From Balneola sp. (lineage in GTDB: Bacteria > Bacteroidota > Rhodothermia > Balneolales > Balneolaceae), in assembly GCA_003712055.1 (NCBI GenBank), contig RHLJ01000001.1, positions 496,001-560,000 of the forward strand: DNA of 64,000 bases. The letters run 5' to 3'. This document shows positions 3,630 through 47,340 of this stretch, piece by piece. The notes below the pieces were generated by a model, which did not search any database, was not told where the DNA came from, and worked only from the letters and a program-made list of their open reading frames with translations. The position numbers and the translations under genes were made by a program. The stretch's first letter is position 1. The number at the start of each line of letters is the position of its first letter.

Positions 3630-5852
3630 ATGACCTCTGCTTTATTTATCGTAACTCTCCTTGTGAGCCTATCGGGAACTCCGTTAGACTCCTTGGAGAG
3701 TTCGTTTATTATTTCCGGTACTATAACTGATGCACAAGATCGTGAATCAGTATCCTTTTCTTACATACACCTCGAAGAGTTAAACCGTACAACTACTTCT
3801 AATAGCGAAGGCTATTTCGAATTAAAAAACATACCTGCCGGAAATTACACACTTAGTATTCACCGAATCGGGTATAAAACTCAAAAGAGGAAAATTGAAT
3901 TAGAGAAAAATATTTCTCTGGATATTGTACTCTCCGCTACTATTCTTACCTCAGAAACGGTGGAGGTTATTTCCTCCGATAATAGTCTTACAGGTTCCAG
4001 TATAGGTCATGCCTCAAAAAGTGTTTCTGGTTCTTCTTTGCGGAGAGATTTGGGTTCTACTTTAGCTAATACCTTATCCAACCTTCCAGGGTTTGAGCAG
4101 CGATCACTAGGCAATGCCACTACCCGACCCGTGATTCGAGGGTTAGGAGATGAACGGTTAATAATCTTACAAGATGGTTTAACAACCGGAGACGTTTCTG
4201 ATCAATCTGCTGATCATGCAGTATCAGTTGATCCGATTGCCAGTTCCGAAATAGAAATTGCCAAAGGCGCTGCCGCACTACAATATGGAGCTAATGCGGT
4301 AGGAGGAATTGTTAATGTGGTCAATAACCTTGTTGCTTCAACAAAGCCAAATACAATAAATGGAACAGCGACATTAAATGCTCAATCAGTAAATACCAGT
4401 GCATCAGGAGCGATAAATCTTTCGCTACCTACTAGTGATTTTGTTATAAACACTCATCTAAATGGAAAGATTGGTGGCGATACAAATACACCCGAAGGAA
4501 TTATTGAAAACACTCAATTTGAAACTACAAACAGCGCTGTTGGAATAAGTTATGTGCGTGATTGGGGGTATATCGGAGGTTCTTTTGGAACTTATTTGAG
4601 TAATTATGGAATACCGCCGGACCCAAATGGTCATCCAGATGGTGTTGATATTGAGATGCGAAAATTTAATTACGCACTGAAGGGAGAGTATTTAATAGAA
4701 AACTCTGTGTTCAAAACTATTGAAGCAGATTTCAGCATTAATAATTACAATCATAAAGAATTTGAAACCACCAGCTCCATTGGAACTGAATTTGGATTAG
4801 TTACCACTACTGCTCAAGTAAATGCAAATCATGGCGAGTTGGGCTTCTTTGAAAGTGGTAAAATCGGACTTTGGGCGGAAGCCGAAGACTATGCAGTTTT
4901 CGGAGCTAGCACTCCGGATGCCAATAGCTATAAAATCGGGGTATATATTATTGAAAATATGCATCTGGGGGCTCTGCACCTGGAAACCGGAGTGAGATAC
5001 GATTACGTACTTAATGAGCCTATAGAAGATGATCCGGATTCAGATATCGGATTTATAAGAGCCAGAGATTTCCATGCCCTTTCCAGCTCTGTGAACGCTT
5101 GGTATGACTTAGGAAAAGGGTTTTCAGTTGGCACTGTTTTACTACATTCATTCCGAGCTCCATCACTTGAGGAATTATATTCGGAAGGGCCTCACCTGGC
5201 TTCATTTAGTTTTGAAATTGGTAACCCCAACCTTGATCCTGAGAGGAGTCTTGCTAAAGAGGTTTTTACACAATGGCAGGGAGAAGCCTCAACATTCAGA
5301 GCCGCTTTATTCCATAACGGGTTTTCTAACTTCAATTATGCAAGAAATACCGGGGAACAAAATGTTCGATTTCCAACCCTGGACAACTACCAGTTTGTAG
5401 GAACAAAAGCCCGGCTTTATGGATTTGAAATTGCAGGAGAATCAAAAATTACCAACCGAATTGTAGCTGATGCTTCGGCAAGCTTTACCATTGGAGAGCA
5501 AGATACTACCTCTTTGACCGGAGACTCAGGTGTTCAGCCTCTCCCCCAGATTCCCCCTCTTAAAGTCAAGTTTTCATTGAAATATGTTAAAGGAGGGTTA
5601 GAAGCCGGAAGTCGATTAGTCCTTGCTTCAAACCAAGACCGAACAGGAGAATTTGAAACTGAAACGGATGGATATGTACTTACCAATTTATTTTCTCAAT
5701 ACCGGTTCAGTTCAAATAAGCTACTTCATACTTTCTCTCTTGGTATTAATAACCTATTTGATGTAGAATACAGAAACCATTTGTCAAGGATCAAAGAATT
5801 AAATCCTGAACCCGGTAGGAATATCACTTTTCTCTACCGAGTTTACTTTTAA
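3630..5852 (+). CDS. ZnuD-like TonB-dependent receptor
   Basis: A 740-residue outer-membrane receptor. Order: signal peptide (SALFIVTLLVSLSGTPLDSL), a carboxypeptidase-regulatory-like domain at about 25-110 (IISGTITDAQDRESVSFSYI), plug domain at about 130-240, then a 22-strand-type barrel ending in an aromatic C-terminus (FLYRVYF). The plug has RPVIRGLGDERLIILQDG followed by DHAVSVDP and ALQYGANAVGGIVNVV, a signature shared with the ZnuD group of zinc receptors. The usual long His-rich loop of ZnuD is not obvious; only GHPDGVDIEM is seen. With the two upstream metal-ligand proteins this makes a three-gene uptake cassette. The 3' end overlaps the convergent HTH gene by 29 bases. Substrate (zinc rather than copper or heme) is inferred. 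Confidence 0.9.
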   Translation: MTSALFIVTLLVSLSGTPLDSLESSFIISGTITDAQDRESVSFSYIHLEELNRTTTSNSEGYFELKNIPAGNYTLSIHRIGYKTQKRKIELEKNISLDIVLSATILTSETVEVISSDNSLTGSSIGHASKSVSGSSLRRDLGSTLANTLSNLPGFEQRSLGNATTRPVIRGLGDERLIILQDGLTTGDVSDQSADHAVSVDPIASSEIEIAKGAAALQYGANAVGGIVNVVNNLVASTKPNTINGTATLNAQSVNTSASGAINLSLPTSDFVINTHLNGKIGGDTNTPEGIIENTQFETTNSAVGISYVRDWGYIGGSFGTYLSNYGIPPDPNGHPDGVDIEMRKFNYALKGEYLIENSVFKTIEADFSINNYNHKEFETTSSIGTEFGLVTTTAQVNANHGELGFFESGKIGLWAEAEDYAVFGASTPDANSYKIGVYIIENMHLGALHLETGVRYDYVLNEPIEDDPDSDIGFIRARDFHALSSSVNAWYDLGKGFSVGTVLLHSFRAPSLEELYSEGPHLASFSFEIGNPNLDPERSLAKEVFTQWQGEASTFRAALFHNGFSNFNYARNTGEQNVRFPTLDNYQFVGTKARLYGFEIAGESKITNRIVADASASFTIGEQDTTSLTGDSGVQPLPQIPPLKVKFSLKYVKGGLEAGSRLVLASNQDRTGEFETETDGYVLTNLFSQYRFSSNKLLHTFSLGINNLFDVEYRNHLSRIKELNPEPGRNITFLYRVYF

Positions 5853-6288
5853 TTAGAGCGTTAATTTTCTTTTCTATTAATTCTATTTGGAGCTTCTTCT
5901 CGTCCTCGGATAAATTTTTATTCTTCAAAGCTTCCGTATAGAGTTTTTCTACTTTGCTTATGTCCTCAAAGAAGTCTTTCAATTGAACTGATGAATCATC
6001 CGAATCTTTGCTCGAATACACAGTTTGTGTTTCATTTACCTCATCTGATGGGGCTTCTTCCAATACCCAATTCTTGCCATCCTTGTTGACTGTAAATGGG
6101 AGTGGTTTCAATAACTCAAGTTGAGTGATCCTTTTTGGGGTACTCTTCCCGTTAATATATTTACTTATTTGTCCCTTATCCTTTCCAACCTCTCTCGATA
6201 ACCAGGCAGGAGTTACACCAGTCCTGTCTAAAGCCTCTTGCAAAGCTAGACCGAAACTATGGAAAATATTAGATTTTGAAGTTGACAA
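5824..6288 (-). CDS. XRE-family HTH regulator, CI-like member of divergent pair
   Basis: A 154-residue protein with an N-terminal helix-turn-helix at about residues 12-60: SFGLALQEALDRTGVTPAWL then REVGKDKGQISKYINGK, the classic XRE recognition-helix pattern. A linker follows, then an acidic, helical C-terminal segment (about 105-154, EKLYTEALKNKNLSEDEKKL) that could dimerise. The start is TTG at 6288; no in-frame ATG lies near. Upstream is a 26-bp near-palindrome and a divergent small HTH gene, so it probably represses or balances that gene. The 3' end overlaps the receptor gene on the other strand by 29 bases. It could be a prophage relic or a stand-alone switch; no other phage genes are near. 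Confidence 0.85.
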   Translation of the reverse strand: MSTSKSNIFHSFGLALQEALDRTGVTPAWLSREVGKDKGQISKYINGKSTPKRITQLELLKPLPFTVNKDGKNWVLEEAPSDEVNETQTVYSSKDSDDSSVQLKDFFEDISKVEKLYTEALKNKNLSEDEKKLQIELIEKKINALIKSKLGREK

Positions 6289-6310
6289 TAGTTGTTTATA
6301 ATTGTATATT
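6282..6310 (+). promoter_or_regulatory. sigma70-like promoter for the 6347 HTH gene
   Basis: TTGACA (6282-6287) and TATATT (6305-6310) are separated by exactly 17 bases, an unusually canonical sigma70 arrangement for this genome. The -35 overlaps the start codon of the divergent regulator, and the palindrome begins two bases after the -10, so bound repressor would cover the start site. Confidence 0.5.
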
Positions 6311-6311
6311 A

Positions 6312-6337
6312 TTGGTAATCCAAATTTGGATAACCAA
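6312..6337. promoter_or_regulatory. 26-bp near-perfect palindromic operator
   Basis: The left half TTGGTAATCCAAA and right half TTTGGATAACCAA are reverse complements except for one symmetric pair (base 6 and base 21). The centre AAATTT lies at 6322-6327. It sits between two divergent HTH genes and directly downstream of a canonical -10, as expected for an operator bound by one or both proteins. On the minus strand TACATTTG (6342-6335), a possible -7 element for the 6288 gene, overlaps its edge. Confidence 0.6.
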
Positions 6338-6346
6338 ATGTAAACA

Positions 6347-6580
6347 ATGCACGAACAAGGTAAAACTGATATTAAAAAGAGGATAAGAGAATGGAAGGCT
6401 AAGTGTATTGCTAATGAGATGTCCTATAAAGAAGTGATAGAAAGTGCAGATATGAATTACAATTCAGTTATAAATGCTCTGAATAATGCGCTGAAGGGAA
6501 ACCCGGTAGCAATATCTGCTAAAAAATTAGAGAAACTCGAAAAGGCAATTTATCTCCTAGTTATAAAAAGGAACATATAA
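6347..6580 (+). CDS. small Cro-like HTH protein
   Basis: A 77-residue basic protein, MHEQGKTDIKKRIREWKAKC, with a likely helix-turn-helix at about residues 25-48 (MSYKEVIESADMNYNSVINA) followed by a helix KKLEKLEKAIYLLV. Size and position divergent from an XRE gene, with a shared palindrome between them, resemble Cro next to CI. No toxin motif is visible, though a toxin-antitoxin reading was considered. The gene is closed by a strong hairpin three bases after the stop codon. Function as a DNA-binding antagonist is inference from architecture. Confidence 0.7.
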   Translation: MHEQGKTDIKKRIREWKAKCIANEMSYKEVIESADMNYNSVINALNNALKGNPVAISAKKLEKLEKAIYLLVIKRNI

Positions 6581-6582
6581 AA

Positions 6583-6611
6583 AAAGCTCCGGTGGTTCAG
6601 GCCGGAGCTTT
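6583..6611 (+). terminator. hairpin terminator after Cro-like gene
   Basis: Ten-base arms AAAGCTCCGG (6583-6592) and CCGGAGCTTT (6602-6611) with a nine-base loop, two bases after the stop codon. The following tract is only modestly T-rich. From here to 6779 I see no gene. Confidence 0.75.
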
Positions 6612-6779
6612 GCTTTAGGTTTTTAGCTTAAGGAGTGACTAGTTGACTAACTTCTGTAGGTTTATACAGATGCTCTCTTAGCTATGCACAAGAGTACACT
6701 CACTTTTATGTGTTACACTTTTTTTTAAAAAAAATTTATTCACTAGTTTTCGCCCATCAAATAACTATTTCAAGGGTTT

Positions 6780-7634
6780 ATGGGCATCATAAAAAAGGGC
6801 GTTTTAATACTTTCAGGAGTATTTTTTCTTCAACATTGTGCAGAACTTCAAAATTTAGCTTCCGTTCAGAAACCAACAATTTCTGTCGAAAATGTTAAGG
6901 TGTCCAATATTTCTTTACAGGATATCGAGCTGCTTTTTGATCTCGAAGTGGACAACCCTAACCCCCTTTCGCTTTCACTCGCTTCCTACTCCTATGACTT
7001 CCAAATCAATTCTAATTCGTTTGTTAAAGGTACACGGGAACTTGAGACTGAAATTGAAGCCAATGGGTCAAATACATTATCAGTGCCCGTTACATTTACC
7101 TTTGAAGAATTGTACAACACTTTCACTTCTCTTAAATCGGAAGACGAAGCAGGGTATACCTTACTCGGATCGGTTGGTGTAAATGTACCTGTAATTGGCT
7201 ATGTAGAAGTACCTATTGAAAAAGAAGGGATATTCCCTGTAGTGAAAGCTCCCTCTCTTTCGCTTACGGGTGTATCTGTTAAAAATCTTTCTCTAACAGG
7301 AGCCGAACTTGAAATAAATGTCGGGGTAGATAATCCTAATTCGTTTGGCCTCAACCTAAACTCTTTAGATTATGAAGTAGATCTGAACGGGTTAAGTCCT
7401 CTTTCCGGAACTATCTCAGAACAAGTATCAATTGGGCAAAAGGAATCAGGAGCACTTATCATCCCTGTTAGTTTAAATTTCCTTCAAGTTGGAATGGCTG
7501 CTTATAATGCATTAAGGCAAGATGAGTTTGAATATTCCTTGAATGGAACTGCGAATCTTGGTGCAGACCTTCCACTTTTTAAGCCATCTTCTCTTAATTT
7601 TGATAAAAGTGGTATTGTTAACATCCTCAAATAA
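6780..7634 (+). CDS. LEA type 2 / WHy-domain lipoprotein (two tandem domains)
   Basis: A 284-residue lipoprotein with signal peptide and lipobox-like LQHC (Cys about residue 20). Two tandem LEA14/WHy-type beta-sandwich domains follow: the first at about 35-155 with the hallmark VDNPNPLSLSLASYSYDF, the second at about 160-282 with VDNPNSFGLNLNSLDYEVDL. The DNPN motif after a strand is characteristic of the family, which is linked to desiccation and stress in plants and bacteria. In Bacteroidota such proteins are periplasmic or outer-membrane anchored with unknown ligands. The next gene begins six bases after the stop, suggesting co-transcription with ogt, though a functional link is not evident. 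Confidence 0.85.
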   Translation: MGIIKKGVLILSGVFFLQHCAELQNLASVQKPTISVENVKVSNISLQDIELLFDLEVDNPNPLSLSLASYSYDFQINSNSFVKGTRELETEIEANGSNTLSVPVTFTFEELYNTFTSLKSEDEAGYTLLGSVGVNVPVIGYVEVPIEKEGIFPVVKAPSLSLTGVSVKNLSLTGAELEINVGVDNPNSFGLNLNSLDYEVDLNGLSPLSGTISEQVSIGQKESGALIIPVSLNFLQVGMAAYNALRQDEFEYSLNGTANLGADLPLFKPSSLNFDKSGIVNILK

Positions 7635-24996: not shown

Positions 24997-25024
24997 AGTC
25001 ATTCCCGCGTAGGCGGGAATGACT
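24997..25024. repeat. dRS3-like hairpin after first VWA gene (possible terminator)
   Basis: Arms AGTCATTCCCGC (24997-25008) and GCGGGAATGACT (25013-25024) pair perfectly with a GTAG loop, followed by TTT. The ATTCCC...GGGAAT core is like Neisseria dRS3 and similar repeats. A weaker relative follows the second VWA gene. Confidence 0.75.
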
Positions 25025-46974: not shown

Positions 46975-47340
46975 TGGTGGAGGTGCGGGGAGTCGAACCC
47001 CGGTCCGAAAAGGTAAACCTGCAAGCGTCTACATGTTTAGTTACTACTTTAAATTCGCCTGAAGCCGAGCCTAGTAACCAAGCGACAACAGACTATCCTG
47101 TGAATTTTCGCGCAATGAAGACAGGAAACCCTATTACGCTATCCTATCTGGTATGACGTTCAGTCTGGCAATGATAGGCACTTAACCAGAGGAACGGCTA
47201 GGCAGTTTATGCTGCTAAGCGGTAAGAATAATTGTTGTCAATTATTTTGGTTTCCATAATGAATGATTTACGAGATTCATTGGAATTTCTCGACATGCAA
47301 CCTACGGTGTTACTCATCCCGTCGAATCCAGAACACCCCC
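46975..47340 (-). ncRNA. ssrA: transfer-messenger RNA
   Basis: 366 bases. The 5' end is GGGGGTGTTCTGGATTCGAC, the 3' end holds the T-arm GGGGTTCGACTCCCC, and acceptor arms GGGGGTG and CACCTCC pair before ACCA, so CCA is encoded. The resume reading frame ends in RLAA and stop (GCTTAGCAGCATAA region near 47207-47220); reading back, the tag is close to METKIIDNNYSYRLAA, the exact first residue being uncertain. RLAA replaces the common ALAA. It rescues stalled ribosomes with SmpB. Any protein read across this locus is spurious. Confidence 0.96.

Follow-up and report, generated by a model that had tools for sequence, protein, structure and literature searches.

A stand-alone divergent gene pair resembling a CI/Cro switch, probably of prophage origin, at one chromosomal site in two genera of Balneolaceae

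We find in the 3.63-Mb genome of Balneola sp. a module of about 730 bp in which a 154-aa regulator (minus strand) and a 77-aa protein (plus strand) are encoded divergently around a gap of 58 bp. We consider it probable, at roughly two chances in three, that this module is a stand-alone, CI/Cro-like autoregulatory switch that originated in a prophage and settled in the chromosome. Sequence comparison establishes several parts of this best explanation, namely the promoter, the palindromic core, the fixed site and purifying selection on the control DNA. The module would be a natural, minimal and apparently domesticated version of a textbook phage switch, found at one chromosomal site in two genera with no phage genes around it. 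Because it has been kept without phage genes, it lends itself well to the question of what use a phage switch has once the phage is gone, and this question is testable since four diverged copies and 13 syntenic empty sites are at hand. A search of open PMC text found no paper describing the module. Positions below are those of the window, the whole stretch of 64,000 nucleotides that was analysed.

3630..5852, plus strand: TonB-dependent receptor gene (best NCBIfam match ZnuD, far below cut-off)
5824..5852, no strand: tail-to-tail overlap of 29 bp between the CI-like gene and the TonB receptor gene (ORF positions)
5824..6288, minus strand: CI-like regulator, 154 aa, TTG start (ORF list, HTH matches, model, orthologs)
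5853..6580, no strand: block lacking in 13 of 17 syntenic loci (synteny comparison)
6282..6310, plus strand: promoter of the Cro-like gene, TTGACA-17-TATATT (found there in all 4 orthologs and at one paralog locus)
6286..6288, minus strand: TTG with which the CI-like gene starts (the ortholog G003 has a stop codon right before it)
6312..6337, no strand: 26-bp imperfect palindrome, presumed operator (palindrome search, carrier comparison)
6335..6342, minus strand: TACATTTG, weak candidate -7 element (TAnnTTTG) for the CI-like gene (promoter scoring)
6347..6580, plus strand: Cro-like protein, 77 aa, four-helix HTH fold (ORF, predicted structure, orthologs)
6583..6611, no strand, with the better U-tail on minus: hairpin behind the Cro-like gene (also after the TonB stop in module-less relatives)
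6780..7634, plus strand: LEA_2 domain gene, the other flank (Pfam-type domain match)

Carriers and proteins

The two genes occur together in 4 of 92 Balneolaceae genomes with constant order and neighbours, and profiles of each protein recover the same four carriers among the 394 genomes of a sample of the phylum. The present genome (G000) and G039 belong to one genus, G003 and G006 to another. Identity between orthologs is 55-65 % for the small proteins and 45-49 % for the regulators.

The regulator is modelled as an N-terminal XRE HTH (residues about 12-60), a beta hairpin (65-78) and a C-terminal helical hairpin, the last being the less certain part of the model (pLDDT 78, pTM 0.47). Its structural neighbours in Foldseek are XRE domains, and the antitoxins HipB and HigA are among the neighbours of the models. 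By sequence it falls below the curated thresholds of Pfam HTH_3 (17.7 bits, cut-off 23) and HTH_19 (18 bits, cut-off 30.2) and matches a transcriptional regulator in PHROG (E 1.2e-6), with weak HTH matches in the PDB and a weak RmrA match in PADLOC (E 8e-4) confined to the HTH part. Pfam and NCBIfam gave no match to the C-terminal S24 peptidase that, through RecA-stimulated cleavage, defines a lambdoid CI, the modelled C-terminus being a helical hairpin, and no ligand or metal domain was recognised in either collection. TTG is the likely start of the regulator, because in-frame stops lie shortly upstream of it in G003 (TAA directly before) and in G039 (four codons upstream). All four orthologous genes open with TTG TCA AC.

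The 77-aa protein is predicted by AlphaFold to be a four-helix HTH domain (pLDDT 89.6). Structures resembling this model are XRE and POU domains, among them C proteins, 434 Cro and HipB; no Foldseek E value was under 0.001, and Z reached 7.8 (rmsd 2.6, 73 residues aligned). Sequence searches matched no family in Pfam, PHROG or NCBIfam, nothing useful in the PDB, and nothing in PADLOC or among phages and viral contigs. According to the model the protein is an HTH fold, with no closer assignment. The initial annotation had proposed two divergent HTH genes around a palindrome; both reading frames are indeed located there, the HTH of the small protein being seen in the model alone. With the same qualification, the pair has the arrangement of a CI/Cro-type switch, divergent genes for DNA-binding proteins with a common control region.

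Just ahead of the small gene, at 6338-6343 (plus strand), ATG and TAA stand side by side, in the reading frame of the Cro-like gene and 9 bases upstream of its ATG. The same ATG-TAA is found in G003 and G006, and in G039 the reading frame of that ATG continues into the gene. It is possible that this is a minimal start-stop leader.

Control region

The promoter of the Cro-like gene consists of TTGACA (6282-6287), a 17-bp spacer and TATATT (6305-6310), scoring 11 of 12 against the consensus. Its placement just before the palindrome, with the -35 over the regulator's start, had been noted before and is borne out by the strand reading, as 6286-6288 reads TTG on the minus strand; the -35 hexamer is thus antisense to the start of the opposing gene. 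The -35 is identical in all four carriers, and the -10 is TATATT in three and TATTTT in one. The same device is found at a regulator paralog in G006 (locus L009/L054), where TTGACA-17-TATAAT is antisense to a TTG start and CAAATTTG lies downstream, followed by a 68-aa ORF and a tail-fibre-like gene. The paralog is 34 % identical to the regulator in the search alignment and 23 % in the multiple alignment. A -35 that is written into the opposing start codon and kept at 23 % identity represents a neat design constraint.

To place this promoter among those of the host, we surveyed the regions upstream of 30 of 34 tRNA matches. TAnnTTTG was found upstream of 15 tRNAs (2 on the reverse strand), 12 of these with a TTG at about the right distance, yielding a native consensus of TTG-N20/21-TATMTTTG. 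The published Bacteroidetes consensus is TAnnTTTG/TTTG (PMC7366714). The protein genes of the window were uninformative for a promoter consensus. An E. coli-like promoter had been called unusual for this phylum. As a string it is: TTGACA-N17-TATAWT occurs once in the whole genome, at the module, the backwards control also giving 1. Its core is not, and one tRNA operon (L057) has TTGACA-17-TATTTT. We regard the module promoter as a variant of the native type rather than a foreign class because TTG and the TATATT core are common to tRNA promoters. Elsewhere in the window, a tmRNA gene (46975-47340, minus strand) has a TATATTTG promoter element upstream.

The palindrome pairs at 12 of 13 positions, in agreement with the single mismatched pair reported initially. 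Simulated sequence gives an expectation of 0.06 such 26-bp palindromes per 64 kb, whereas the window contains 2. The second one, GTCATTCCCGCGTAGGCGGGAATGAC at 24998-25023 (12 of 13 pairs), is GC-rich and looks like a hairpin repeat. The palindrome at the module can also be read as two 12-bp TTGG-N4-CCAA sites, TTGGTAATCCAA and TTGGATAACCAA, 14 bp apart. It overlies the predicted transcript start of the Cro-like gene and, because that start would be inside it, we think that a role as an RNA hairpin is unlikely.

The description as a near-perfect palindrome applies to this genome, the one carrier of the four with the full 26 bp; the other three hold the core or shorter palindromes at the same place. 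The core CAAATTTG is kept in three of the four carriers, and G039 has ATAATTTG instead, which breaks it. G006 carries AACCAAATTTGGTT, a perfect palindrome of 14 bp; G003 combines a perfect 12-mer with a 16-bp site that has one mismatch, and a 16-bp site, again with one mismatch, is present in G039. Across all 6 pairs of carriers the gap between the genes is 70-84 % identical, compared to 22-49 % at the four-fold codon sites of the same two genes. The gap is thus under purifying selection, being more constrained than silent coding sites of these two genes.

The promoter of the regulator is less clear. A -7 element on the minus strand had been proposed to overlap the palindrome, and TACATTTG (6342-6335) does so by 3 bases. 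It is exact in two of the four carriers, with one mismatch in G003 and two in G006. Promoter scores, from a native model trained on a biased sample of 17 promoters chosen for holding TAnnTT[TA]G, are 10.2 in the window, 7.5 in G039 and 4.4 in G003, all below the 99 % null level, and in G006 no such site is among the top three on the minus strand. The overlap is real, and the element itself a weak candidate.

Chromosomal site and origin

All four modules lie between the 3' end of the TonB receptor gene and the LEA_2 gene. We collected 29 LEA_2 loci (from 26 of 44 and 3 of 4 genomes), and in 17 of them a TonB receptor gene precedes LEA_2, 4 with the module and 13 without. The comparison suggested with the initial annotation, whether relatives lack the block, thus came out positive. 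In the 13 module-less loci, 108-141 bases separate the TonB stop from a conserved promoter motif on the minus strand, compared to 838-855 in the four carriers. Likewise, a hairpin begins 3-26 bases past the TonB stop in 10 of the 13, the strict search returning no hairpin in G034, G032 and G007, and 730-747 bases past it in the carriers. Since both distances are lengthened in carriers, the block sits between the TonB stop and the original terminator. The tail-to-tail overlap of the regulator and TonB genes is found also in G039 and G003 and not in G006.

A tree of the flanks was built from 15 genomes, omitting the distant loci G074 and G012. It is consistent with a single gain that preceded the divergence of the two genera, plus two losses, but the support of several nodes is only 59-73. 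The regulator shows no clear closeness within genera (49 % versus 46-49 %), and independent gains or transfer of the module may have occurred. An insertion beside the metal receptor had been suggested; the block is lacking in relatives as that implies, but it is old and kept rather than freshly inserted. The neighbours examined comprise the TonB receptor, LEA_2, MGMT, amidohydrolase and PepSY genes and several small ones without match. They include no phage gene, as claimed, and no integrase, structural or lysis gene that would mark a prophage was found near the module. Rfam gave nothing above cut-off near it.

We place the origin in a phage mainly because a second relative of the regulator in G003 (profile E 2.8e-21) sits in an integrase-bearing, prophage-like element. 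This relative faces an excisionase-like gene and has RecT-like, SbcC-like and integrase genes as neighbours, a tRNA-Cys adjoining the integrase. Judged from its gene content the locus is prophage-like, a prophage or similar element. The same locus invites another explanation, in which the module is a relic immunity gene kept for defence, its repressor silencing phages with the same operators and the small gene serving as regulator of the repressor. In line with this, the repressor relative resides in the genome of another genus, and AAATTTGGATTA occurs both in the module operator, on the minus strand, and in the start region of the repressor gene of the prophage-like element. Yet conservation of the Cro-like protein equals or exceeds that of the repressor, which would be odd if the repressor alone mattered. 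Moreover, the regulator profile had no match in viral contigs, no relatives were found on plasmids, and the matches among phages are weak and limited to HTH proteins of Cellulophaga phages (33 % over 45 % of the regulator). We consider the defence explanation unlikely.

On the minus strand next to the module (6717-6576) we observed what is likely an unannotated sRNA of about 110 nt, with the promoter TGTAACA-N16-YTCTT. This motif stands at the same place in 17 of 17 syntenic loci and was found in 52 of 105 loci, many of them overlapping. The RNA, at about 6684-6576, terminates in a hairpin and U run; of the 9 hairpin pairs, 6 are changed on both sides among 23 genomes. Its core GUUAGUCAACUAGUCACUCCUUAAGCUGAAACCUAAAGC is near-identical in many genomes, it had no Rfam match over cut-off, and it persists where LEA_2 is missing. 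These comparisons point to an sRNA that is likely conserved across the family at the same site. The 'AAC' of its -35 looks ECF-like. At L054 (6460-6487, minus strand; 6676-7239, plus strand) TGTAACA-N16-CTCTT lies upstream of a small lipoprotein-like ORF beside an ECF-sigma-like gene (Pfam Sigma70_ECF just under cut-off), whose product is a candidate sigma factor for the sRNA promoter.

Proposed working and comparison with known switches

We hypothesize that the regulator silences the promoter of the Cro-like gene by binding to the palindrome; since the palindrome covers the expected start, the bound protein should block the transcript. The Cro-like protein would bind the same region and reduce transcription of the repressor, so that the outcome would be a mutually repressing, or at least autoregulated, pair. 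In switches of the phage 186/P2 type, pR and pL are laid out face to face. If the TACATTTG promoter is right, it would face the Cro-like promoter with both starts inside the palindrome, an arrangement like that of 186/P2 and not of lambda. This is a weak step of the proposed mechanism.

No second full operator was found in the genome within 3 mismatches, and the 12-bp half sites (6 forward and 7 reverse) show no enrichment over the backwards control (8 and 7), with 7 of the 8 places elsewhere inside an ORF of 80 aa or more. By these counts, no trans targets are evident. The counts also bear on a one-input pair, in which the C-terminal helices of the larger protein would serve to sense a ligand or metal and this protein would repress a small regulator that acts elsewhere, with no bistability. 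A module adjoining a receptor whose best NCBIfam match is ZnuD and a strongly conserved small protein are what such a pair would have, but the regulator has no recognised ligand or metal domain and no regulon sites for the operator were found. We therefore find this arrangement improbable. Even less credible is that the two genes form an addiction pair, selfish or toxin-antitoxin-like, in which one HTH protein would be the antitoxin. HipB and HigA do appear among the Foldseek hits to the models, but many XRE proteins that are not antitoxins come just as close. Moreover, the partner also has an HTH fold, and neither protein matches a toxin family in Pfam, NCBIfam or PADLOC.

Beyond the module itself, the candidate target of the CI/Cro-like switch that comes first is the TonB receptor gene, with which the CI-like gene overlaps. 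In the window and the three orthologous loci, we found no strong terminator in the stretch from the TonB stop to the end of the small gene, or behind the regulator; the search gave a few weak sites, no more than chance would. The module may thus be coupled to the receptor gene. It is conceivable, if rather speculative, that the module taps the receptor gene by capturing its terminator, linking a host nutrient signal to a phage switch. Transcripts of the receptor gene would then cross the repressor gene in antisense and enter the Cro-like gene in sense, and those of the repressor would extend antisense into the receptor gene. Metal starvation inducing the receptor could in that case throw the switch by read-through, making repressor cleavage unnecessary.

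Compared to known systems, we class the module as working like CI/Cro and not as a member of the lambda family because it lacks S24 and no close kinship in sequence turned up. It shares with lambda CI/Cro the divergent HTH genes and a presumed operator over the promoter of the small gene. It differs in having one palindromic region where lambda has three operators, and in lacking the S24 cleavage domain and a lytic operon. Phage 186 CI/Apl and P2 C/Cox likewise have repressor and Cro-like genes on opposite strands (PMC7708051). Unlike these phages, the module has no integrase, CII or Tum-like gene that we could find, and its repressor promoter is only weakly predicted. In E. coli, DicA/DicC is a CI/Cro-like switch of the Qin cryptic prophage that was shown to be bistable, with a repressor of 135 aa that lacks the bond cleaved through RecA (PMC10448788). 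The Dic genes are located in a prophage and control the dicBF operon, whereas the module has no other phage gene or operon. Both combine a short XRE repressor without RecA-type cleavage with a small Cro-like gene facing it, the operators in between being presumed in the module. We regard DicA/DicC as the closest working precedent for the module.
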